DNA of 37,301 nucleotides from positions 1 to 37,301 of the forward strand of contig JAJRQB010000010.1 of the NCBI GenBank assembly GCA_024280485.1, in the 5' to 3' direction. This stretch comes from Deltaproteobacteria bacterium. GTDB lineage: Bacteria; Desulfobacterota; Desulfuromonadia; Desulfuromonadales; Geopsychrobacteraceae. A program made the translations under genes and the position numbers. The notes under the pieces were generated by a model. It made no database searches, had not been told where the DNA came from, and saw only the letters and a program-made list of their open reading frames with translations. This document shows, in pieces, positions 2,245 to 36,827 of the stretch (position 1 is the stretch's first letter; every line of letters starts with the position of its first letter).

Positions 2245-3303
2245 GTGGACGAAAAACCACCACGCGTTATCAAGCGGAAGGTCAGGCCAAAATCTTGGAC
2301 TGTCCAATTCAAGATACTATTGAATCAAGGATGGGAGAAAGTTACCAAAAAACAGCTATTTACTTTGCCCATAGCCAGCCAATTTGGCCCCGAGCCTGCT
2401 TGGCAACAGAAAGTGGCCTATTACTGGAACGTGTTTTACAAACAATCAAATTTAGCCTTCGCGGTAGCCCTATTAATTGTCTGTTTTGCCATACTGGGAG
2501 GCTGGAGACTCTATTTCCCCGACGTTCAAATTGATTTAAGGGTGGAATTCTGGGGCCTCATTTTCGACATTTTTTTTATTTTGATTGTATTTTCTTTCTT
2601 TGAATATCGTCGGCAACGTTCGCAGAATATTCAGCATCAACAAGAAATTATTGATGACTACAAACGGTGGGATAGTCCTGAAGCACATTTCCGAATTGCA
2701 GGTGCGATTCGTCGATTAAACAAGCAGGGTATATTTGCGCTTGATTTGGCTGGTATACGGTTAACTAATTTTTCTTTCAGCAAATGTGAAATCGGAGACA
2801 TAACAGGATCCACTTTCTATGATGGAACATGGGGCAAACCACTATTAGATAAGTCGATTGAACTGACTAATGTCAGTTTTGATCATGTGGAATGCTGCTC
2901 TGTTCAATTCTCTCCATATGAACCACTTTATTGGACAAACAGCAAAATTTCTAGACACGCAAAATTAATAGATTGCTCTTTTTTTTCAGCAACCCTCAAA
3001 AATGCCGTTTTTAACGGTGCACAATTGGAGTGGACATCTTCTCCACCGAACGCACATTATGAATATGTTTTAGATGGTGACGAGGAATCATACAAAGAGC
3101 AATTGAGCTATGGTCCCTTTTTTCAAGCAAATTTGGCGGGGGCGTCATTTATTCGAACAAAGTTTAAATATGCTGATTTTAGAGATGCTGAAGGTGTTTT
3201 GGAGGCTGATTTTACAGAAGCGATTGGCTTGGAAGACGCAGTATTTGATAGCGAAGTGATCAAAAATACAATCATGTCAAAATTTATTACTGTGAAAGAT
3301 TAA
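2245..3303 (+). CDS. Membrane-anchored pentapeptide-repeat protein
   Basis: The start is the GTG at 2245 with TTGGAG eight bases upstream. The 352-residue product has a basic N-terminus, two hydrophobic segments at about 70-90 and 102-119, a short charged linker, and from about residue 165 a region rich in A(D/N)LxxA/F-type pentapeptides (for example LTNFSF, LKNAVFNGAQL, ANLAGASF, ADFRDAEG). Such repeats form a right-handed quadrilateral beta helix. The topology suggests a membrane hairpin with the helix in the cytoplasm. It follows the AIPR gene by 128 bases on the same strand and may share its transcript. The biochemical role is unknown; an effector or sensor partner of the AIPR protein is only a guess from position. 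Confidence 0.75.
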   Translation: MDEKPPRVIKRKVRPKSWTVQFKILLNQGWEKVTKKQLFTLPIASQFGPEPAWQQKVAYYWNVFYKQSNLAFAVALLIVCFAILGGWRLYFPDVQIDLRVEFWGLIFDIFFILIVFSFFEYRRQRSQNIQHQQEIIDDYKRWDSPEAHFRIAGAIRRLNKQGIFALDLAGIRLTNFSFSKCEIGDITGSTFYDGTWGKPLLDKSIELTNVSFDHVECCSVQFSPYEPLYWTNSKISRHAKLIDCSFFSATLKNAVFNGAQLEWTSSPPNAHYEYVLDGDEESYKEQLSYGPFFQANLAGASFIRTKFKYADFRDAEGVLEADFTEAIGLEDAVFDSEVIKNTIMSKFITVKD

Positions 3304-8297: not shown

Positions 8298-8502
8298 CCC
8301 TCAAGCTCCCACCAAAACTCGCAAATCGGCCATTTGACCGAAGGTCGCAATCTAGCAACAGTGCCTGATGATGTCAAGTTGAGCAGGACCGGGACGAGAC
8401 AATTTCCATGAGCAAAAAATTAATCACAATCTCTCCCTTTACTCCAACAACATCGCGATTCCCTGTCAATTAATTACATGATTAGCACAGATCTTGCCTG
8501 AG

Positions 8503-8609
8503 CCCTTCTCCCTGAGGGAGAAGGTGGCCGAAGGTCGGATGAGGGGGCCTTAAAGAGCCCACAATTCCCCCTCACCCTAGCCCTATCCCTATCCCTCAGG
8601 GAGATGGGA
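8503..8609. repeat. Interspersed palindromic repeat (CCCTTCTCCCTGAGGGAG type), copy 1
   Basis: The element begins CCCTTCTCCCTGAGGGAGAA and ends with the complementary CCCTCAGGGAGATGGGA, with an inner GATGAGGGGG...CCCCCTCACCCTAG pair, so the whole ~107 bp can fold into a long hairpin. A second copy lies at 13724-13854. Elements of this kind are common between genes in proteobacteria. It is noncoding. Confidence 0.75.
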
Positions 8610-13716: not shown

Positions 13717-13723
13717 CAAAGTG

Positions 13724-13854
13724 CCCTTCTCCCTGAGGGAGAAGGTGGCCGAAGGCCGGATGAGGGGGGACAGGGGACAGGCCCTAATTGCCACGGCTTC
13801 CCCCCTCACCCTAGCCCTCTCCTTTAGGCCCTGTGGGTCCTCAGGGAGAGGGGA
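13724..13854. repeat. Interspersed palindromic repeat (CCCTTCTCCCTGAGGGAG type), copy 2
   Basis: The first ~45 bp are nearly identical to copy 1 (8503-8609): CCCTTCTCCCTGAGGGAGAA then GGTGGCCGAAGGCCGGATGA. The 3' arm (CCCCCTCACCCTAGCCCTCT ... TCAGGGAGAGGGGA) is complementary. The centre is longer than in copy 1. It lies between convergent genes and may act as a terminator for both. Confidence 0.75.
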
Positions 13855-15198: not shown

Positions 15199-15218
15199 AG
15201 TAGACAGGATAACCTGCT

Positions 15219-15381
15219 AGGAACCTGTCCGACAATAGGGCCGAAGCGAAAATTCAGAAGTTTGAGGTCAGATTTTAGCTCGTTTGCGGGCTCATAGCCG
15301 TAGCTATGGGGCAAAAAGGAGCTGAGATATGGACCAAACTGCTGAATTTGCAGCCGGTTCTGAATTGTCGGACAGGCTCCT
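15219..15381. repeat. 163-bp palindromic intergenic element, copy 1
   Basis: The ends AGGAACCTGTCCGACAAT and ATTGTCGGACAGGCTCCT are inverted repeats with one mismatch over 18 bp. The interior has TTTTAGCTCGTTTGCGGGCT, the hairpin CATAG-CCGTAG-CTATG and CAAAAAGGAGCTG; TAGCTC and GAGCT pair across it. A related copy lies at 18165-18328. It codes for nothing credible and has no transposase, like a MITE or large REP element. Confidence 0.75.
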
Positions 15382-15410
15382 CGAAGGGCCATCGCAAGAG
15401 TGGACGAATT

Positions 15411-18164: not shown

Positions 18165-18328
18165 AGGAGGCTGTGGACTGTTAGAACTGAAGCGAAAATT
18201 TGGATGGTTGAGAACAGATTTTAGCTCGTTTGCAGGCTCATAGCCGTAGCTATGGGGCAAAAAGGAGCTGGGATATGGGCCAACTAGCCGGATTTGCAGC
18301 CAGGTCATGGATAGTCCGACAGTCTCCT
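18165..18328. repeat. 163-bp palindromic intergenic element, copy 2
   Basis: Ends AGGAGGCTGTGGACTG and AGTCCGACAGTCTCCT are inverted repeats with two mismatches over 16 bp. The centre (GATTTTAGCTCGTTTGC ... CTCATAGCCGTAGCTATGGG and GGCAAAAAGGAGCTG) is almost identical to copy 1 at 15219-15381, while the regions next to the ends differ. Its right end touches the cheV stop codon. Confidence 0.75.
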
Positions 18329-21942: not shown

Positions 21943-22147
21943 GTGGGTCTTAACTGATTAAACAGCCTTTCCCAGGTTACGCCCGCTACGCATTTATGCG
22001 TCCCGCCCTCCCGCTGACTTAGATTTAAGAATTAATCGATCTGTATATAAGTCAGATCGGCTTCTCTGTCAATTCAACCGGCTCAACTGTGACCAGAACC
22101 TTCTCTATTTGACCTGAGTCGCTAATCTTTGTACTATGGCCGGGTAT
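21943..22147. other. Intergenic stretch without recognised features
   Basis: The ~200 bp between the 103-residue protein gene and the structured leader of proV contains no credible gene. Promoters for both flanking units must lie here or in the leader region but no clear -35/-10 pair was found. Confidence 0.3.
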
Positions 22148-22297
22148 AGGCGACGCCCTGCCCGGGTGTTCCGTCCTTGCCCCGCAAGAGGATCGTCAAG
22201 AACTTCGCCCTGTGTGATGCTTCACAGATCTTCTTTTCTATCAGAGTAGCGCCTGGTTCGTGCAGTTCCTGCTGAACCGAGTCGCGGGTCGCTCTGT
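22148..22297 (+). ncRNA. Candidate structured leader RNA of the glycine-betaine transporter operon, copy A
   Basis: This ~150-nt stretch is closely similar to 25738-25885, which precedes the aminomutase gene at a similar distance (167 and 184 nt before the starts). Both fold into a multi-branched shape closed by GCGAC/GTCGC (22150-22154 with 22281-22285 or the GTCGC at 22288). Inner helices are GGGTGTTC (22164-22171) with GAACTTCGCCC (22200-22210), enclosing CTTGC-CCC-GCAAG; TGTGA/TCACA (22213-22226); and GGTTC/GAACC (22255-22278), whose inner part is GCAG/CTGC. Between the copies the inner part of that last helix changes to AACC/GGTT and stays paired, and G-T to A-T changes occur in two others. 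I recognise no known riboswitch class. Ligand and mechanism are unknown; osmotic control is inferred from the genes. Confidence 0.55.
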
Positions 22298-22464
22298 CAT
22301 TTAGAAAATCAAATAACAAATTATTATTAGGAACGCTGCGAGTCGCGGTCAACCATTCTTTCCTCCCCGGCTGTGGGCTTCAGTGTAGTTATAGTTATGA
22401 CGACACCTGACCAGCCCCCCCCCATCACCACAAAGCTAACACCCTGAACCATAAGGATAAATAT
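22298..22464 (+). other. Region between structured leader and proV
   Basis: This 167-bp stretch starts AT-rich, then carries GCTGCGAGTCGCGGTC (22334-22349), which repeats the GAGTCGCGGGTC end of the leader and could compete for pairing with its 5' GGCGAC arm. No run of T after a hairpin and no short gene were seen. Confidence 0.35.
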
Positions 22465-23694
22465 ATGAGTAATCACGTCAAAATTTCTGTCAAAAACCTA
22501 TTCAAAATTTTCGGACCGCATCCGAAAAATGCACTGCATTTACTTGAGCAGGGTCTTAATAAAGAAGAAATTTTCAAAAAAACCGAGACGACCGTTGGCG
22601 TTCAGGACGCCAGTTTCGATATATATACCGGCGAAATTTTCGTCATCATGGGACTCTCCGGATCCGGCAAATCAACCATGGTGCGGATGCTCAATCGGCT
22701 GATCGAACCGACCACAGGACAGATTCTTATTGATGGTGAAGATATCGTCAACATGAACAATGATCAGCTGGTCAAACTGCGCCGTGAAAAGATGAGTATG
22801 GTCTTTCAATCTTTTGCCCTGATGCCGCACATGACCGTATTACAGAACGCTGCTTTTGGTCTGGAGATGGACGGCATCGACAAACCAACCCGAGAAGCAC
22901 GTGCCCTACAAGCATTGGAACAGGTCGGGCTGGAATCCAGAGCGAATAGCATGCCGGATGAACTGTCCGGTGGTATGCAACAGCGGGTCGGACTGGCACG
23001 CGGACTAGCCGTTGATCCCGATATTCTGTTGATGGATGAAGCCTTCTCAGCACTTGATCCACTGATTCGAACCGAAATGCAGGACGAGCTTCTCAAACTG
23101 CAAGCCAAGGCGAAACGGACGATCGTCTTTATCTCCCATGATCTTGACGAAGCGATGCGGATCGGTGACCGCATTGCGATCATGGAAGGAGGAAGTGTCG
23201 TCCAGGTCGGCACACCTGAAGAAATTCTACAGAACCCCGCCGACGATTATGTGCGCGCCTTCTTCCGCGGTGTCGATCCGACCAATATTTTGACCGCAGG
23301 TGATATTGCAGTCGACTCACAGGTCACCATTATTGTCACCGATGGCAAAAGTCCCCGTGCGGCACTGCAGCGCTTGATCAAAAATGATCGTGATTACGGC
23401 TATGTGATCGACAGCATCCGTAAATTTCAGGGGATCGTCTCAGCCGATTCACTACGCGAACTGATCGATCGCCCTGAATACCCGCAAGAGATCAGCAACG
23501 CTTATCTTGCCGACATAGTCCCGGCCCACACAAACGATTCGATGCAGGACATTCTGCCTGAAGTCGCAAGCAATCCCTGGCCACTGCCGATCCTTGACAG
23601 TGCGGGTGGGTATCTGGGGGCCGTATCCAAAAATCTGTTCCTGCGCACCCTGCATCGCAGTGAACCAGAAGAATCAATTGAAATGACTGTCTGA
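22465..23694 (+). CDS. proV: Glycine betaine/proline ABC transporter, ATP-binding subunit
   Basis: The 409-residue ATPase drives uptake of quaternary-amine compatible solutes. It has Walker [10 protein letters not shown] (63-71), the ABC signature LSGGMQQR (167-174), Walker B ILLMDE (187-192) and the switch FISHD. After residue ~280 a pair of CBS domains follows, as in OpuAA/ProV, where they sense ionic strength. The N-terminal segment [11 protein letters not shown] is typical. AAGGAT lies upstream of the ATG. First gene of proVWX, 27 bp before proW; the transcript is probably controlled by the leader at 22148-22297. Confidence 0.96.
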
Positions 23695-23721
23695 TTAACA
23701 TAATGGAGATAAGACCGAGCG

Positions 23722-24561
23722 ATGCGAATATTTAATTTTGAAGAACAGTTGATACCGCTAGATGAATGGGTACAGACCTCCGTCGATTGGCTGGTCCTAA
23801 ATTATCGTGAATATTTTCAAATCATCAAGGCACCGGTTGCAATCAGCCTGGAGGCTCTAGAATGGCTTTTTGCGACCCTGCCACCGTTTGTTGTGATCCT
23901 GCTGTTTGCCCTGACGGCCTGGCGCTTCGCCGGTAAACGAGTGACGATTTTCAGCGTTTTGACTTTCGTGCTCATCGGTTATCTCGGTCTCTGGGAAGAC
24001 ACCATGACCACCCTGTCGATGGTGATCTGTTCGGTGGCCTTTTGTGCGGTGAGCGGCATTCCCCTCGGGATCATGGCGGGCCGCAGCAAGCGTTTCGAGA
24101 TGTTTCTGCGCCCCTTCCTCGATGTCATGCAGACCACCCCCCCCTTTGTCTACCTGGTACCGGTGGTCATGCTGTTCAGTATCGGTACCGTCTCCGGCAT
24201 TCTGGCGACCATCGTCTTTGCCCTGCCACCGATTATCCGCCTGACCAATCTCGGTATCCGTCAGGTTCATCCTGAACTGATCGAAGCGGCAACGGCCTTC
24301 GGGGCAACACCCTGGCAGGTGTTACGCAAAGTACAATTTCCGCTCGCCTTGCCCTCAATCATGGCCGGGCTCAACCAGACAATCATGATGGCCCTGTCGA
24401 TGGTGGTCATCGCCGCCCTCATTGGTGCGGGCGGATTAGGGAATCCTGTTGTCCAAGGATTGAACACTTTGGAGATCGGGCTGGCTACTATTGGTGGCCT
24501 CTCCATCGTCCTGCTGGCAATGGTTCTCGATCGAATCACCCAAGGAATCGCTCAAAGGTAG
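23722..24561 (+). CDS. proW: Glycine betaine/proline ABC transporter, permease subunit
   Basis: The 279-residue membrane protein has about six hydrophobic segments and the permease motif for contact with the ATPase (ELIEAATAFGATPWQVLRKVQFPLA, split here as EAATAFGATPWQ and VQFPLALPSIMAGLNQTIM). The N-terminal amphipathic part IPLDEWVQTSVDWL is typical of ProW/OpuAB. Start ATG with GGAG 15 bases upstream. It lies between proV and proX and forms the channel of the inner-membrane complex. Confidence 0.95.
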   Translation: MRIFNFEEQLIPLDEWVQTSVDWLVLNYREYFQIIKAPVAISLEALEWLFATLPPFVVILLFALTAWRFAGKRVTIFSVLTFVLIGYLGLWEDTMTTLSMVICSVAFCAVSGIPLGIMAGRSKRFEMFLRPFLDVMQTTPPFVYLVPVVMLFSIGTVSGILATIVFALPPIIRLTNLGIRQVHPELIEAATAFGATPWQVLRKVQFPLALPSIMAGLNQTIMMALSMVVIAALIGAGGLGNPVVQGLNTLEIGLATIGGLSIVLLAMVLDRITQGIAQR

Positions 24562-24605
24562 TCTGTTAGTTCTATTCACTCATATCGCTCAAGAGGAGAA
24601 AAAGT

Positions 24606-25625
24606 ATGAAACGTGTTTTGCTTACCCTGCTACTACTGTCTCTATGTATACCGGCCTTTGCTGACCAACAGAAACCCGGCAAAGGAATCAAGGTCCAACC
24701 GGCCCGCGCCACCTGGAACACCGGTTTCTTTCATGAAGCCATTGTTCGTGCCGGGCTGAAAGAACTCGGCTACAACGCGAAGAAACCTAAAGAATTATCC
24801 AACCCGATATTCTACCAAGGTCTCGTTATGGGTGACCTTGATTACTGGACCAACGGTTGGTTCCCCATGCATGACGGCCAGGTTCCAGAAGGTTTTTACG
24901 ACAAGGCCGAAAAGGTCGGTTATGTGGTCAAGGCCGGCGGGTTGCAAGGCTACCTTGTCTCGAAAAAAGAAGTAGAAAAGTATGACATCAAATCGATCGA
25001 AGACTTCAAGCGTCCCGAAGTCAAAAAGGCTTTCGATGCCGATGGTGATGGCAAAGCCGATCTGACCGCCTGCCCCGCTGGTTGGCAGTGTGAAAAAATC
25101 ATCAGTCACCATTTAGATGTTTATGGTCTGGAAGACCACATCAACCCGGTAAAGGCAGCCTATTCGGCCAGCATGGCCGATGTCCTGGCTCGTTACAAAT
25201 CCGGCCAACCTGCTTTCTTCTACACCTGGGCACCAAACTGGACCATCTTTAAATTCAAGCCGGGTGAAGACGTGATGTGGATCAACGTGCCTGAGATCAA
25301 GCCTTTTACCTCGCAGGCGAGCGCAGAAGAGCGCATGACGGTCAGTGATGTTACTGGTGCAGTCAGCAATCCGGTTAAACTCGGGTTCGTGGTCGCCGAC
25401 ATTCGGATCGTAGCCAATAAGAAATTCCTAGCCAAGAATCCAGCGGCCAAGGAATTCTTCAAACTCTTCACTATCCCCCTAGCTGATATCAACGAGCAGA
25501 ATACCAAAATGCAAGACGGTGAAAAGTCAGCGAAGGATATCCAACGCCACGCCAAGGAATGGATCAAAAAGAACCAGAAGACTTGGGACAGCTGGCTAGA
25601 TGCGGCACGCAAAGCTGCGCTCTAA
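24606..25625 (+). CDS. proX: Glycine betaine/proline ABC transporter, periplasmic binding protein
   Basis: The 339-residue product has a signal peptide (hydrophobic residues 3-17, cleavage after CIPAFA at 19) and a periplasmic type II binding domain of the ProX/OpuAC kind: ARATWNTGFFHEAI, VMGDLDYWTNGWFPMHD and TYTWAPNWT-like FFYTWAPNWTIFKF. The many Trp residues suit an aromatic cage for the trimethylammonium group. The DADGDGKADL stretch resembles an EF-hand loop, an insertion seen in some ProX proteins. AAGAGGAG precedes the ATG. 44 bp after proW. Confidence 0.95.
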   Translation: MKRVLLTLLLLSLCIPAFADQQKPGKGIKVQPARATWNTGFFHEAIVRAGLKELGYNAKKPKELSNPIFYQGLVMGDLDYWTNGWFPMHDGQVPEGFYDKAEKVGYVVKAGGLQGYLVSKKEVEKYDIKSIEDFKRPEVKKAFDADGDGKADLTACPAGWQCEKIISHHLDVYGLEDHINPVKAAYSASMADVLARYKSGQPAFFYTWAPNWTIFKFKPGEDVMWINVPEIKPFTSQASAEERMTVSDVTGAVSNPVKLGFVVADIRIVANKKFLAKNPAAKEFFKLFTIPLADINEQNTKMQDGEKSAKDIQRHAKEWIKKNQKTWDSWLDAARKAAL

Positions 25626-25639
25626 ATATCAGAACCAGT

Positions 25640-25668
25640 CCGGCCGGCAGGGAACCCCCTCCGGCCGG
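25640..25668 (+). terminator. Strong hairpin after proX, probable terminator
   Basis: CCGGCCGG, a one-base bulge, AGGG, loop, CCCT, CCGGCCGG form a 12-bp stem, 15 bases after the proX stop. Only a weak T-rich tail follows (GCTTACT), so it may be a processing or stabilising hairpin. Confidence 0.6.
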
Positions 25669-25737
25669 GCTTACTGCCAAGTTCAGGGACAGACACGAGG
25701 AATAATCACTATTCCTTACAATCAAGACTGATCGACA

Positions 25738-25885
25738 AGGCGACCCCCATCTGGGTGTTCCGTCCTTGCCCCGCAAGGAGATCGTTAAGAACTTCACCCC
25801 GTGTGATGCTTCGCAGATCCTCTTTCCTTACAGAGTTGCGCTTGGTTCAAACCTGCCGGTTGAACCGAGTCGCGGGTCGCTCTGT
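25738..25885 (+). ncRNA. Candidate structured leader RNA of the aminomutase gene, copy B
   Basis: This is the second copy of the element at 22148-22297. The closing helix here is longer (GCGACCC with GGGTCGC). GGGTGTTC pairs with GAACTTCACCC, TGTGA with TCGCA, and GGTTC-A-AACC with GGTT-GAACC. Single-stranded joints such as CCGTCCTTGCCCCGCAAG and CGAGTCGCGGGTCGCTCTGT are nearly unchanged between copies. It lies downstream of the proX hairpin and 184 nt before the aminomutase start. It could also be an interspersed repeat, but both copies have the same orientation and spacing to osmolyte genes. Confidence 0.55.
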
Positions 25886-26069
25886 TCCAAAACAACCGAA
25901 TAGTGACAATTTTCAGGACGCGGCTGATGGCCTGCGCCCCATCTCTTCTGTGCACCTTTGCACCTGACGGCCGAAGTGTATACATGATAGCCCTCAGCAT
26001 TCATCCCTCCTGATTTCGTCAACTCTCAAACTCCGCAGAATCGATATAACCCTAATAATGGAGAAAAGC
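25886..26069 (+). other. Region between structured leader B and the aminomutase gene
   Basis: The 184-bp stretch has no gene. TTGCAC (25959-25964) with TACATG (25982-25987), 17 bases apart, could be a promoter inside the interval; if used, the structured element would lie upstream of the transcript instead of in its leader. Confidence 0.3.
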
Positions 26070-27140
26070 ATGACTGCTCAATGGCAAAAGCAGATGCAAA
26101 ACCAGGTCAACACTCTCGAAAAACTTTCAACCTACATTAATGTCTCTGACGACGAAAAAGAAGCGATCCAGTCTTTGGACACAAAATGGGGGACGACACC
26201 CTATTTTGCCTCATTAATGGATAAAGACGATCCGACATGCCCGATCCGGATGCAGGTCATCCCTTCAATGCAGGAGAAGGTCAATAAATTCGGGATGAAA
26301 GATTACCTGCTCTTCAAAGAAAATCGTAAGACAGAAGAGGTCCGTCCCGACAGTATTGCCCGTCAGTACACCGACCGGATCGCCTTTACCGTCATCCAGG
26401 ATTGCGGAATCTACTGCCGCCACTGTTTCCGCAAGGAGTTAGTTGTAGATCAGGATCTGCAGTTGCGTTTCGATGTTGAAGAAGGCCTGACCTGGATTGG
26501 CGAGCACGACGAGATTCGTGACGTGCTGATCACCGGCGGAGATCCTTTGCTGCTGTCGGATGAAAAGCTGAAGTATCTGATCGACAGCCTGCGCGCGATC
26601 CCGCACGTTCAGATGATCCGCATCGGCTCACGCCTGCCGATCGTTCTTCCACAACGGATCACCGAAGGTTTGAAAAAAGCGATCGGCGGCTTCCACAGGG
26701 TGCCGGTCTGGATCAATACTCAGTGCAACCACCCGAAAGAGATTACCCCCGAAACCGAAAAGGCCGTATATGAGTTGATGAGTTGTGGAGTCAATGTCGG
26801 CAACCAAGCTGTGCTCTTAAAAGGGATCAACGATGATGTGCCGACCTTCAAAGAGCTACACCAGAAACTGCTGCGCACCCGGATTCGCCCCTACTATGTT
26901 TTCTATTGCGAACCGGCCCCAGGAATCGATCATTTCCGTACCCCGGTTGAAAAAGGAGCCGAGCTGATCCGTGACGCGCTGCGGGGTCACACCACCGGGT
27001 TGGCGCAACCAATGTACGTGCTGGCCACCAATATCGGCAAGATCCCGCTGATGCCGGACTACTACATTGACGACAAGAATGACGCTGAGTACACACTGAA
27101 AAACTACAAGGGCGAGACAACCCGCATTCCGAACATCTAA
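26070..27140 (+). CDS. KamA-family radical SAM amino acid 2,3-aminomutase
   Basis: The start is the ATG at 26070 with GGAG six bases upstream; that site overlaps an earlier in-frame ATG at 26058. The 356-residue protein has the radical SAM cluster motif C112-x3-C116-x2-C119 (DCGIYCRHCFRKE), ITGGDPLLL, RIGSRLPIVLPQRIT and a PLP lysine candidate Lys324 in NIGKIPLMP. Known lysine 2,3-aminomutase binds the substrate side chain with two Asp residues, one in QCD and one in the VVDAPGGGGK loop. Here the first aligns with Glu281 and the second is absent (VLATNIGK, two residues shorter). The substrate may thus not be lysine; beta-glutamate or beta-lysine production as an osmolyte is inferred from the neighbours. 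No AblB-type acetyltransferase is adjacent. Confidence 0.85.
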   Translation: MTAQWQKQMQNQVNTLEKLSTYINVSDDEKEAIQSLDTKWGTTPYFASLMDKDDPTCPIRMQVIPSMQEKVNKFGMKDYLLFKENRKTEEVRPDSIARQYTDRIAFTVIQDCGIYCRHCFRKELVVDQDLQLRFDVEEGLTWIGEHDEIRDVLITGGDPLLLSDEKLKYLIDSLRAIPHVQMIRIGSRLPIVLPQRITEGLKKAIGGFHRVPVWINTQCNHPKEITPETEKAVYELMSCGVNVGNQAVLLKGINDDVPTFKELHQKLLRTRIRPYYVFYCEPAPGIDHFRTPVEKGAELIRDALRGHTTGLAQPMYVLATNIGKIPLMPDYYIDDKNDAEYTLKNYKGETTRIPNI

Positions 27141-34379: not shown

Positions 34380-34497
34380 GCTCAACGGTCGTGATAAGCG
34401 GCGGCGACGAAATTTTTCGGCTTACTACCGCAATTTAGATTTTGCTTTTTGTGGACCACACCTGCGTTTTCCGTCCGCTTGATTGCATTATTAGGGC
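34380..34497 (-). other. Integron attC site 1
   Basis: The ~118-bp site has outer core GCTCAAC on the plus-strand left and a degenerate ATTAGGGC on the right. Inner arms are AAGCGGCGG (left) and CCGTCCGCTT (right). The single extra T in the right arm corresponds to an extra base in L'' when read on the minus strand, which sets the orientation. Closely similar to sites 2 and 4. Confidence 0.8.
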
Positions 34498-34510
34498 TTT
34501 CTTGCTACCA

Positions 34511-34529
34511 TGTACCGTAACCCCGTACA
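34511..34529 (+). promoter_or_regulatory. Probable YefM operator
   Basis: TGTAC (34511-34515) and GTACA (34525-34529) form an inverted repeat just before the antitoxin ribosome site. YefM proteins are known to bind TGTACA-type palindromes, so this fits autoregulation of the pair. Confidence 0.5.
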
Positions 34530-34545
34530 GAATTGGAGGTTTTAT

Positions 34546-34818
34546 ATGGATACTGTTAGCGTTAACAAGTTTCGTGACAATTTAAAAAACTTTGTGGAGC
34601 AGGTTGCTCGCCAGCATTTGCCGCTGAAAGTCACTCGCCGAAGTGGTGAAGACTTTGTGGTCATTAGCGCGGATGACTGGGAGCGGGAACAAGAAACACT
34701 TTACGTGTTACAAAATTCCAGCCTTATGAAACAGATTGCAGAGTCCTCTCGGTCACATGCTGAGCGTTCTGGTTATTCCCCAACAAATGAGGAAACAAAT
34801 GAGATCCTTGGTCTTTGA
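34546..34818 (+). CDS. yefM: YefM/Phd-family antitoxin
   Basis: The 90-residue protein has the Phd/YefM N-terminal DNA-binding fold (VSVNKFRDNLKNFVEQVARQ, LKVTRRSGEDFVVISADDWE) and a C-terminal segment that binds the toxin. The start at 34546 has GGAGG seven bases upstream; the frame extends 12 codons further but without support. It overlaps the toxin gene by 20 bases. The pair is carried as a cassette but points opposite to the attC orientation, so it must have its own promoter. Confidence 0.9.
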   Translation: MDTVSVNKFRDNLKNFVEQVARQHLPLKVTRRSGEDFVVISADDWEREQETLYVLQNSSLMKQIAESSRSHAERSGYSPTNEETNEILGL

Positions 34819-35068
34819 AGGGACTACCTGGGCCGCTTATGAAGGCCTCAGAACAAAAGACAAGAGGTTGCATAAAGCGCTTTGTATGATTTTGAAAGAA
34901 ATGCTTCGGGGTGATCCTGCTGTTGGTACAGGTAAGCCCGAAGCACTTCGGCATAACCTTTCTGGGTTCTGGTCTCGACGAATAAGTCAAAAAGACAGAC
35001 TTATTTACAAATTCGACGACAACTACATTTATATTTTTGCAATCGGTGGTCATTACGATCAATTCTGA
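34799..35068 (+). CDS. yoeB: YoeB/Txe-family mRNA interferase toxin
   Basis: The 89-residue protein cleaves mRNA at the ribosome when free of YefM. It shows the Txe/YoeB pattern: LVFEGTTWAAYEGLRTKDK, ILKEMLRGDPAVGTGKPEALRHNLSGFWSRRIS in parts, DRLIYKF and the C-terminal GGHYDQF with the catalytic His and final Tyr-Asp region. The ATG at 34799 has GAGGA six bases upstream inside the antitoxin gene, giving coupled translation. It ends one base before attC site 2. Confidence 0.9.
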   Translation: MRSLVFEGTTWAAYEGLRTKDKRLHKALCMILKEMLRGDPAVGTGKPEALRHNLSGFWSRRISQKDRLIYKFDDNYIYIFAIGGHYDQF

Positions 35069-35069
35069 G

Positions 35070-35185
35070 CCTTAACGGTCGTGATAAGCGGCGGCGACGA
35101 AATGGTTCGGCTTACTACCGCAATTTGACTTTGCTTTCTGGGAAGCACACTTGAATTTTCCGTCCGCTTGATTGCATGGTTAGAC
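35070..35185 (-). other. Integron attC site 2
   Basis: The 116-bp site has CCTTAAC at the plus-strand left and GTTAGAC at the right. Inner arms AAGCGGCGG and CCGTCCGCTT pair with one extrahelical T. Reading on the minus strand gives R'' GTCTAAC, L'' with the extra A, L' and R'. It lies 20 bp after the stop of the AlkD-like gene in array direction. Confidence 0.85.
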
Positions 35186-35204
35186 CACCCCATGGCGACA
35201 TATC

Positions 35205-36041
35205 CTATTTTGCAGCAGCCCTAATTTGAAGTGCTATCTTATTTTGTTTTTTTGCAGGATACCTTAGAGCATGTCGAATTACCCACTTTACATCTTTTGT
35301 AGCACCGGTGAGCCACCGTTCGCAGATGCCAAAAACAATCTCTGGGTGATCTTTTGCAATATCACCGAGATGATTAGCAACACTTCGACGCACATAAAGG
35401 ACTTCATCATTTTTTAAGGCTTCCAATATTGGTAATACCGGTGATGGATCATTTATAAATGCCGGAATTCTAGGTGCCCATGGAAGTCTTGACCGAGTAC
35501 CCTCGGAACAAAGTCGCCTTACGTGAGGATCTGGATCGAATACCCATTCTTTTATTCTTGAAAGAGTACGATCTTGATATTGATTGAGAAACGGACGAAT
35601 AGAAAATTCTGATGTTGATCGTTTTGTCAGTTCATATTGAGCCTTCATCGATATTTCAAACGGATCTTCTCCTTCATTGTATTTTTCATCCACGCCATAT
35701 TCAGCAATGAAATAGCTATGAGGATGATAAAATAAAACCGCCAATCCTAGACCTTCAGTTTCGGTGTTTGGTGGAGTAAGAGAGGCTAAAATTATATTAA
35801 TCGCATTCTCGTATTTTTTAGGCAGATGTTCCCTAAGTGCTCTAGCAATATGTAATCCTCTATCATTAATTCCTAGAGGCTCTAAGTTGTCTGTGGCAAT
35901 CGTTTTAAATTCCTGAACATTAAATTCAGGGTAAACATATGAAATATTTTGTGCCAAACAATCGATTGCCTCTAAACCAAGCACATTCTTTAAGGGAACC
36001 CCTTTTTGTATTGATTTAGGTGCCTCTGGAATACGCAACAT
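35205..36041 (-). CDS. DNA alkylation repair (AlkD-like) HEAT-repeat protein (cassette gene)
   Basis: The 278-residue protein is mostly alpha-helical with HEAT-like repeats. Key segments are HVRRLCSEGTRSRLPWAPRI and VRRSVANHLGDIAKDHPE, hallmarks of the AlkD/COG4335 group that flips out or removes bulky alkylated bases. The repair Asp of AlkD was not placed. The start ATG at 36041 has AGAGAT-type weak upstream sequence. Cassette gene oriented with the array, 20 bp before attC site 2. Its upstream part contains an IS30-like end. Confidence 0.75.
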   Translation of the reverse strand: MLRIPEAPKSIQKGVPLKNVLGLEAIDCLAQNISYVYPEFNVQEFKTIATDNLEPLGINDRGLHIARALREHLPKKYENAINIILASLTPPNTETEGLGLAVLFYHPHSYFIAEYGVDEKYNEGEDPFEISMKAQYELTKRSTSEFSIRPFLNQYQDRTLSRIKEWVFDPDPHVRRLCSEGTRSRLPWAPRIPAFINDPSPVLPILEALKNDEVLYVRRSVANHLGDIAKDHPEIVFGICERWLTGATKDVKWVIRHALRYPAKKQNKIALQIRAAAK

Positions 36042-36080
36042 AGAAATATCTCTTAACTCTCAAAATGGTCTAGACAATAT

Positions 36081-36105
36081 GGTGCACTTTGAAGTTGAAT
36101 CTACC
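36081..36105. repeat. Isolated IS30-type terminal repeat
   Basis: GGTGCACTTTGAAGTTGAAT plus CTACC resembles the IS30 right end at 235-259 (20 of 25 identical). Its last 12 bases, GTTGAATCTACC, are repeated at once at 36106-36117. No transposase is near. Confidence 0.5.
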
Positions 36106-36121
36106 GTTGAATCTACCAAGC

Positions 36122-36161
36122 ACCCAACTATTTTCCATCCGTCTTCATTTTCTTGTTAGGC
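36122..36161 (-). other. Half attC site 3 (right half lost)
   Basis: On the minus strand GCCTAAC (36161-36155) then AAGACGGATGGAAAAT match R'' and L'' of the other sites (for example AAGCGGACGGAAAAT). The match then stops where the expected loop and right half should be. IS30-like sequence lies beyond. It follows the outer-membrane protein gene by six bases. Confidence 0.6.
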
Positions 36162-36167
36162 TTTTTC

Positions 36168-36662
36168 CTACCAGCGCCAGCTAAAACCTAAAGAACCTGC
36201 GGCGACGACTGAATCTTCCTGTTTGTACCCCTCTGGGATGTCTTGATCTACAACGAAGAAGTCGGCATCAAATGCCCAGTGGTCACCAAAACGCCAATTA
36301 ATACCAAGGCCACCAGACAAGCCCGTTTTGGTATCATATTTCTTGCTTCCTGCGAAAGTTGTTTCAAGAATGGTATTGGTTCCATACAGTGCGGTAAGCC
36401 GACCCCTGAACTTTGCATCACGTCCAGGGTAGTAAAGTCGTGCACCTGCGTTCCACCCGATATTTTCCGGTAGCGAACCTAAGCCTACTATTGGAGCAAA
36501 ATAGTCATTTACGCCCATTTCGTAATTTCCGCCGATGCCACCACCATACGGAAGACCGATACCGCCACCTACTACATGCTCAAGTTGATTACTGTATGCA
36601 GGCGCTGAAAAGGTAAAGGTGAGTAGAAGCGCAGAAATGATGAGATAGAGATTTTTGTTCAC
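36168..36662 (-). CDS. Small outer-membrane beta-barrel-like protein (cassette gene)
   Basis: The 164-residue product has a signal peptide (LYLIISALLLTFTFSAPAYS, cleavage near residue 24) and a Gly-rich mature part of alternating short strands (GGGIGLPYGGGIGGNYEMG, GLGINWRFGDHWAFDADFF) that ends in W, like small barrel proteins. The start is GTG with AGGAGG eight bases upstream. The gene sits between half attC 3 and attC 4 in array orientation. No specific function is recognised. Confidence 0.65.
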   Translation of the reverse strand: MNKNLYLIISALLLTFTFSAPAYSNQLEHVVGGGIGLPYGGGIGGNYEMGVNDYFAPIVGLGSLPENIGWNAGARLYYPGRDAKFRGRLTALYGTNTILETTFAGSKKYDTKTGLSGGLGINWRFGDHWAFDADFFVVDQDIPEGYKQEDSVVAAGSLGFSWRW

Positions 36663-36712
36663 GGTTGTTTCCTCCTGTGGAACAATTAAATAATTGGCTC
36701 ATCATGATTTGA

Positions 36713-36827
36713 GCCTAACGGTCATGATAAGCGGCGGCAACGCGAACTTGCGTGACCTACCGAAATTTGATTTTGCTTTTTGCGAACCACACCTGTATTT
36801 TCCGTCCGCTTCATTGCATGGTTATGT
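36713..36827 (-). other. Integron attC site 4
   Basis: GCCTAAC at the plus-strand left and GTTATGT at the right enclose AAGCGGCGG and CCGTCCGCTT with the same extra T. The central part (CAACGCGAACTTGCGTGACC) differs from sites 1 and 2, as is normal between cassettes. It overlaps the end of the 106-residue gene by a few bases. Confidence 0.85.

Follow-up and report, generated by a model that had tools for sequence, protein, structure and literature searches.

A stretch of 37,301 nucleotides (nt) from a deltaproteobacterium of the family Geopsychrobacteraceae (contig JAJRQB010000010.1, positions 1 to 37,301; hereafter the window) raises the question of what two similar leader sequences of about 150 nt do in front of two different osmolyte genes. 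The window contains proV, proW and proX at 22465-25625, followed by a gene of the KamA aminomutase family (start codon at 26070); one leader precedes proV (copy 1) and the other the aminomutase gene (copy 2). The original prediction described two related sequences on one strand, and this was borne out by a repeat search, in which 22164-22259 paired with 25753-25848 (88%) and 22268-22297 with 25856-25885 (93%), and by BLAST, which gave 83% identity across positions 1-150 of a 153-base query (E 2.2e-37). The predicted start-codon distances were right as well: 167 nt to the proV ATG (22465) and, for the aminomutase gene, 184 nt to an ATG (26070) that is preceded by GGAG and was used for the distance, the program-made open reading frame (ORF) starting at 26058. 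The genome has these two copies only, both in the window, by BLAST (E up to 1) and in agreement with two covariance models, R1 and R2. As set out below, the element is almost certainly a cis-regulator and, judged from its sequences, is a cis-regulatory RNA class absent from Rfam 15.

A DNA search found matches in 31 of 98 genomes, the window's genome counted. The resulting alignment A2 holds 31 sequences, with a second copy in genome G007 and a 23-nt contig-edge fragment in G041 excluded. Model R1, built from A2, matched 66 of the 136 genomes of the window's order, including a divergent sub-type. A further alignment, A4, of 20 divergent sequences, mostly of this sub-type (type II) with a few intermediate ones (e.g. 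L077, L083, L087 and L094), gave model R2; neither window copy was used in it, and it recovered copy 1 at 65 bits (E 4.8e-12). Since R2 recovers type I copies strongly (E down to 2e-16), the two sub-types support each other. The covariance search of the order that had been proposed yielded, as the union of R1 and R2, 106 elements in 75 of the 136 genomes, with one copy in 52 genomes, two in 15 and three in 8. Searches beyond the order were made with R2 rather than R1, under Infernal's stricter filters: matches occurred in 75 of 277 genomes of the class, every one within the window's order, and in 3 of 395 genomes of a phylum sample, each in the window's own family. Across 84,980 species genomes, the type I pattern was found in 21 stretches, whose record titles read Desulfuromonadales, Desulfuromonadaceae, Desulfuromonas, Desulfuromusa, Malonomonas, Geopsychrobacter or only 'Deltaproteobacteria'; the cultured carriers Malonomonas rubra DSM 5091 and Desulfuromusa kysingii DSM 7343 both belong to Desulfuromonadales (NCBI taxonomy), the basis on which the window's order is equated with Desulfuromonadales here. 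Among viruses (IMG/VR), the exact type I tail pattern gave 0 stretches and a looser type II pattern 8, none of which was upheld by R2 at E up to 0.1.

Type I consists of helix P1 (AGG/CCT) with hairpin P1a, a loop (T/C)CCCGC, a P2 domain made of a long helix with an inner hairpin, and a P3 domain with an outer helix CAGAGT/GCTCTG, an inner helix GCGC/GTCGC, a variable terminal hairpin and a bulge GGGT. In its 31 sequences, 96.0% of 1484 cells were paired and two-sided changes were present in 26 of 48 pairs; one P2 pair, for example, goes from G-C to A-U in 10 of the 31. Type II retains P1/P1a, the CCCGC loop and P3 and differs in P2 (GAGG/CCTC plus an 11-base-pair hairpin). Its 20 sequences had 90.6% of 955 cells paired and two-sided changes in 26 of 49 pairs, with only 75.7% of cells paired in the 11-base-pair hairpin. 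Selection on RNA structure, as originally proposed, is shown by compensatory changes in both sub-types, and the exchange of four pairs in the last hairpin, GCAG/CTGC for AACC/GGTT, can be read directly in the two window sequences.

In a shuffle control, none of 500 shuffles attained any of five pairing measures. The structures are consensus folds of the same alignments (P2 of type II was read by hand from A4), which makes the slid controls to some extent circular. With no structure supplied, a mutual-information scan of the joined 5' and 3' domains placed helix pairs at ranks 1, 2, 6, 7, 8, 10 and 12; high ranks also went to other columns, a result of the difference between the two sub-types. 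This set comprised 100 sequences, 99 of them distinct (L093, L097, L098, L099 and L137 were dropped as partial, truncated or poorly aligned, and L100 is absent); at one P3 pair, 60 of the 99 have A-U and the other 39 G-C. Folded singly, the proV copy was weak (z -1.07, with 30 of 200 shuffles folding equally well) and the aminomutase copy strong (z -4.3). The deciding support for the predicted fold is comparative rather than derived from single-sequence folding.

The fold originally drawn for the two copies held as to a shared, conserved structure with compensatory changes, but two of its helices are not the best supported. Its closing helix, GGGTGTTC with GAAC..C(A/G)CCC, can pair in 236 of 248 cells with zero two-sided changes, whereas the hairpin CACCC/GGGTG, formed from the same bases, pairs in 183 of 185 cells and shows 4 such changes. 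Similarly, TGTGA/TCRCA is paired in 136 of 155 cells (1 two-sided change) and its competitor TCAC/GTGA in 119 of 124 (4 two-sided changes). The closing helix could be an alternative state of the RNA. One rival reading is a ligand-free physical sensor, in which the fold or an alternative pairing would answer ionic strength or temperature directly, as in a thermosensor: the type I GGGTG can pair with the CACCC of P1a or with the downstream C(A/G)CCC, and most of the 31 sequences allow either pairing. We consider this quite unlikely, as leaders of the thermosensor type usually hide the start site, something not predicted for this element, and as the near-invariant loop bases suggest specific recognition. 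The CCCGC loop may pair with the GCGGG of P3 as a pseudoknot, judging from their complementary sequences. A long-range UUC/GAA pairing common to both types was also considered and rejected, the change of TT to AA in L122, L129, L132 and L133 being uncompensated by eye.

To list the genes behind the element, as the original prediction had suggested, we took as downstream gene the longest same-strand ORF of at least 80 codons starting no more than 700 nt past the element, and inspected odd cases. Genes were classed by BLAST to reference proteins, and the counts were merged by hand after removal of duplicates (L048, L127 and the second L100). Five of the 106 elements, at contig ends, have no readable gene (L012, L014, L066, L101 and L137). 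The results showed that a compatible-solute gene follows within 700 nt in 94 of the 101 readable cases: ProV in 49, ProX in 1, EhuB in 1, sucrose-phosphate synthase in 1, the amidotransferase for N-acetylglutaminylglutamine (NAGGN) in 1, AblA in 6, an Eam-type KamA in 28 and a second KamA type in 7. The last two types (35 of the 94) were counted as osmolyte genes from family and context only; without them the count is 59 of 66. Curated protein models scored above their cut-offs in L071 (TIGR02472, 666 bits), L083 (TIGR03104, 1012 bits) and L094 (TIGR03820, 768 bits); in L025 TIGR02995 scored 192.5 bits against a cut-off of 190.9, and an EhuC-like partial protein adjoins. AblB (TIGR03827, 318 and 335 bits, cut-off 205) follows AblA in L132 and L094, the two loci checked. 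Conversely, 45 of 72 ProX copies have an element no more than 4 kb upstream.

The similarity of two copies 3.6 kb apart in the window would suit an interspersed repeat, a mobile element or a DNA operator. Random placement, the outcome that was to speak for this explanation, was not what we found: genomes carry one to three copies, mostly before osmolyte genes and co-oriented with them, and the copies show compensatory base changes, so that this explanation is hardly credible. The predominance of ProVWX operons as context (49 ProV and 1 ProX of the 101) raises a different possibility, namely a riboswitch for one compatible solute such as glycine betaine. We find this very unlikely, since the genes behind the element also serve ectoine uptake or the synthesis of sucrose and NAGGN, or encode lysine 2,3-aminomutase and other KamA types, and no solute is common to all of these.

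A known Rfam class was ruled out for the window copies and for the elements in 10 divergent loci, in agreement with the original statement that no known class fits. Neither window copy matched Rfam 15 at gathering scores or at E up to 5, and no family matched the elements in the 10 divergent loci; the four matches there were under the gathering scores and lay outside the elements, the best being cspA-like in L138 (52.5 bits, gathering score 78) at 1-404, with the element at 2892-3046. The Na+-I riboswitch (DUF1646 motif, RF03071) resembles the new element in that it precedes osmolyte genes and has ties to salt stress, according to the text excerpts of PMC9337991, whereas its Rfam model has 55 positions and the element about 150 nt. 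The same source reports that, in other bacteria, ablA, eam and dapB lie behind Na+-I riboswitches, some of which form a tandem with a cyclic di-AMP (c-di-AMP) riboswitch (PMC9337991). RF03071 had no match at E up to 0.001 in the 136 genomes of the order, and none in the window or the 10 divergent loci.

The c-di-AMP riboswitch (ydaO/yuaA, RF00379) responds to a second messenger involved in osmotic and K+ balance; the cyclase (DAC) domain for this messenger is present in 127 of the 136 genomes of the order. Unlike the new element, it is rare there and precedes TrkA or Kup rather than osmolyte genes: it was found in 6 of the 136 genomes, before K+-transport genes in five and at a contig end in one. 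TrkA follows in three cases (L141 and L146 by family search, L145 by reading) and Kup in two (L143, where the family search gave a partial match under the cut-off, and L144 by reading). Genomes G019 and G026 carry both RNAs: in them trkA follows the c-di-AMP riboswitch, and proV follows the new element. The window copies gave no match to RF00379 at E up to 5, and none was found in the 10 divergent loci.

Two other motifs found before osmolyte-transporter genes differ, by their published descriptions, in host and in where the ribosome-binding site lies. The proX motif (SRC-29-1) is likewise a riboswitch candidate before a betaine transporter gene, but the excerpts of its description list 17 representatives, primarily from Spiribacter, with a conserved ribosome-binding site that a motif stem can occlude (PMC8632094); in the new element the start codon is far away. 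The opuB motif (SRC-50-1) is similarly a structured leader before an osmolyte-type ABC transporter gene, but it occurs mostly in Enterobacteriaceae and its P1 includes Shine-Dalgarno bases, and its ligand is described as one that matters to shikimate and aromatic metabolism (PMC11109978). In the open-licence PubMed Central literature, no work naming the element was found in titles and abstract openings among the matches listed. The excerpts of the Pelobacter carbinolicus genome paper mention ablA/ablB for acetyl-beta-lysine and hundreds of nucleotide sequence features, and the element may be among those in its supplements, without a name (PMC3543383).

The element bears general marks of a riboswitch candidate: a conserved structured leader with covariation, on the same strand before functionally related genes, with a 5'-end position suggested by promoters. 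Osmotic stress is the common trigger for taking up betaine and ectoine and for making sucrose, NAGGN and acetyl-beta-lysine; these routes have no metabolite in common. One RNA before genes for such different solutes argues for a general osmotic or ionic signal and not a single osmolyte. Of the shared cis-regulator originally proposed (riboswitch, salt or osmolyte sensor, or protein-binding leader), the cis-regulator stands through covariation and the link to osmolyte genes, while a single-osmolyte sensor is disfavoured by the gene set. The element is probably a riboswitch-type sensor of such a general signal, as far as its sequences and contexts tell. To a more far-reaching version we give a probability of roughly 0.45: a new riboswitch class with two sub-types and one core would sense K+, Na+ or c-di-AMP (the last by a second, unrelated aptamer) and co-regulate the compatible-solute regulon of Desulfuromonadales, in place of Na+-I and c-di-AMP riboswitches before ablA and eam. 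By analogy, the new RNA may fill the regulatory place that those two classes hold elsewhere. In the probable reading given first, the mRNAs with which Desulfuromonadales take up and make compatible solutes would begin with the element, which folds into a scaffold of three parts: P1/P1a with the CCCGC loop, the variable P2, and P3, whose GCGGG bulge possibly pairs with the loop. It would sense the general osmotic or ionic state of the cell through an alkali ion (K+ or Na+) or c-di-AMP, and under osmotic stress it would raise the expression of the downstream gene. Binding of a small ligand or ion, the identity of that ligand, the direction of switching and the action on the gene are what we infer from these comparisons.

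The main rival is a protein-binding leader, that is, an RNA whose partner is not a small ligand but either a general RNA chaperone or an RNA-binding protein under osmotic control. A trans-acting regulator would suit the presence of one RNA ahead of many unrelated genes, and the restriction of R2 matches to one order would be expected if the RNA had co-evolved with a lineage-specific protein. Moreover, in at least one copy (L122) the first gene after the element encodes ribosomal protein S21, and ribosomal protein genes are often controlled by binding of protein to RNA. This explanation appears unlikely to us, as the sub-types differ in P2 and keep the core, and as about 150 nt are tightly conserved, unpaired loop bases included, where most protein-binding RNA sites need less.

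The possibility that transcription starts downstream of both elements was examined by scanning for sigma-70-like promoters in the 103 copies with enough upstream sequence. The best site, with at least 9 of 12 matches and a -10 box ending 7-13 nt 5' of the element, was present in 52 of the 103 copies, against a mean of 1.3 and a maximum of 3 expected from shuffling (100 rounds, single-base shuffling); at a cut-off of 8, the count was 69 against 5.7. A promoter at such a narrow distance places the expected mRNA start at the beginning of the element. In many copies, judging from these consensus matches, transcription most likely begins with the element itself or no more than a few bases away from it. 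Promoters just upstream of about half of the copies, the window's proV copy among them, speak against a downstream start, although the window's aminomutase copy lacks a good one. Upstream of the latter copy, where the usual -35/-10 pair is missing, lies an inverted repeat GGAATA-ATCAC-TATTCC (25699-25715), a possible operator.

The route from element to gene expression was approached through the spacer, as the distance from element to gene is usually about 140-240 nt. A tentative second hairpin in the spacer of copy 1 was also suggested by a consensus fold of 23 selected relatives without copy 1, weakly and with many imperfect pairs, and a pyrimidine-rich loop is predicted in it. By eye, no consistent terminator-like U-tract followed the element. 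An intrinsic terminator within P3 was rejected: although some copies are followed by CTCTGTCCTTTT, visual inspection showed no U-tract in either window copy or in several others. Masking of the Shine-Dalgarno sequence by the P2 strand CTCCTT was likewise rejected, since P2 varies with compensation to non-matching sequences and predicted pairing to the element is low. Control could operate via the spacer hairpin, via ribosome access, or via access of Rho or RNase, which is a guess.

Several observations weigh against the riboswitch reading. The KamA-type aminomutases are identified to family level. The window's aminomutase scores under the arginine, glutamate and lysine equivalog cut-offs and aligns with lysine 2,3-aminomutase 2a5h (E 4.8e-86); by sequence it is related to lysine, glutamate and arginine 2,3-aminomutases, a family-level assignment only. 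As to promoters, 51 of the 103 copies lack such a site, the window's aminomutase copy included (best 7 of 12). No expression platform stands out: over 85 leaders, the mean predicted pairing of the Shine-Dalgarno sequence was 0.43 towards the spacer and 0.07 towards the element, in a computation without a shuffle control. In four type II loci (L120, L122, L123 and L132), a short ORF stands between the element and the ablA/kamA gene, so that the osmolyte gene comes second; the ORF of L122 (672-872) encodes the S21 protein mentioned above (TIGR00030, 61.3 bits, cut-off 28.95), and the other three read alike. A strict first-gene count gives 90 of 101, with short ORFs screened in some loci only.

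In addition, 7 of the 101 readable cases fall outside the known osmolyte genes (L093, L097, L126, L131, L134 and L135 twice). In L093 and L097, both from genome G028, truncated elements without the 3' domain lie 13 and 25 nt before closely related methyltransferase-like genes and represent either decayed copies or a different use. L134 has no close gene, and L135 has two tandem copies before genes without assignment; the gene in L131 is presumably a polar amino-acid-type ABC transporter, and in L126 a short ORF precedes what we take to be an SGNH-like protein. Among the 72 ProX copies, 27 lack an element in the 4 kb upstream, and 11 of the 27 lie near a contig start. Finally, as CCCGC/GCGGG is nearly invariant, covariation cannot prove the pseudoknot; the sole double change (L129 and L133) leaves a mismatch beside a compensatory pair, and L078 breaks the pairing, while L087 and L094 retain a U-G pair.

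Control of compatible-solute genes is usually ascribed to transcription factors, to transporter-based sensing or to Na+ and c-di-AMP RNAs. Here a single RNA fold is found before at least six biochemically different routes to a higher internal osmolarity, and the signal that bacteria read as 'osmotic stress' becomes testable through what the RNA binds. A K+-selective riboswitch would be the boldest version of the new-class reading, if true. The 106 natural sequences, including those of cultured strains, could be used for probing and for salt-responsive gene tools.

Coordinates of the element copies, their structural parts and the adjoining genes in the window; A2 columns refer to the type I alignment.
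Feature	Coordinates	Strand	Evidence and remarks
RNA element copy 1, type I, proVWX leader	22147..22297	+	covariance model R1 163 bits, E 9.1e-33 (copy itself in R1)
Copy 1 promoter TTGACC - 17 nt - TACTAT	22109..22137	+	-10 box ends 9 nt upstream of element; scan and positional enrichment
Copy 1, P1 and hairpin P1a	22148..22177	+	A2 columns 2-33; paired cells 97.8% and 97.6%; each helix with two-sided changes
Copy 1, near-invariant loop CCCGC	22181..22185	+	31/31 in A2; 95-99/100 per position in wider set
Copy 1, P2 domain, AAGAGGATC/GATCTTCTT plus inner hairpin	22186..22235	+	A2 columns 42-92
Copy 1, P3 domain, CAGAGT/GCTCTG, GCGC/GTCGC, terminal hairpin GGTTCGTGCAG..CTGCTGAACC	22242..22296	+	A2 columns 99-153
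Copy 1, near-invariant GCGGG	22284..22288	+	candidate pseudoknot partner of 22181-22185
Tentative second hairpin, candidate expression platform, between element and Shine-Dalgarno	22329..22390	+	single fold of copy 1; weak
proV, glycine betaine/proline ABC ATPase	22465..23694	+	NF007480 527.9 bits, cut-off 444
proW, permease	23722..24561	+	NF008196 344.2 bits, best match, yet under cut-off 439
proX, substrate-binding protein	24606..25625	+	NF008334 431.7 bits, cut-off 215
RNA element copy 2, type I, aminomutase-gene leader	25737..25885	+	R1 151.1 bits; R2 (neither window copy used) 62.8 bits
Copy 2, P1/P1a	25738..25766	+	A2 columns 2-33
Copy 2, CCCGC	25770..25774	+	A2 columns 37-41
Copy 2, P2	25775..25824	+	A2 columns 42-92
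Copy 2, P3, terminal hairpin with AACC/GGTT	25831..25884	+	A2 columns 99-153
Copy 2, GCGGG	25872..25876	+	sequence and A2 alignment
KamA-family radical SAM aminomutase	26070..27140	+	TIGR00238 287.5 bits, cut-off 199.2 (scan from 26058)

Elsewhere in the window, three similar sequences of about 110 nt (TAACGGTCRTGATAAGCGGC ... CCGTCCGCTTSATTGCAT) lie between ORFs at 34381-36824 and presumably resemble the attC sites of a chromosomal integron cassette array. Four minus-strand ORFs surround them, three of which have Pfam matches (PNPOx-like, HEAT and OMP beta-barrel). Inside this possible array, at 34510-35068, is a toxin-antitoxin pair with a Phd/YefM-type antitoxin (TIGR01552, 47 bits, cut-off 21) and a Txe/YoeB toxin (TIGR02116, 60 bits, cut-off 52). 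A group II intron match (Rfam RF00029, 61.5 bits) adjoins the possible array at the contig end (37161-37237); group IIC introns are known to target attC sites. Further repeats were observed at 15236-15360 and 18182-18306 (125 nt, 85% identity), the first copy being flanked by 24-nt inverted arms (15213-15236 and 15364-15387), and, between larger ORFs, at 8502-8547 and 13723-13768, where a 46-nt dyad repeat beginning GCCCTTCTCCCTGAGGGAGAAGG occurs with 98% identity.

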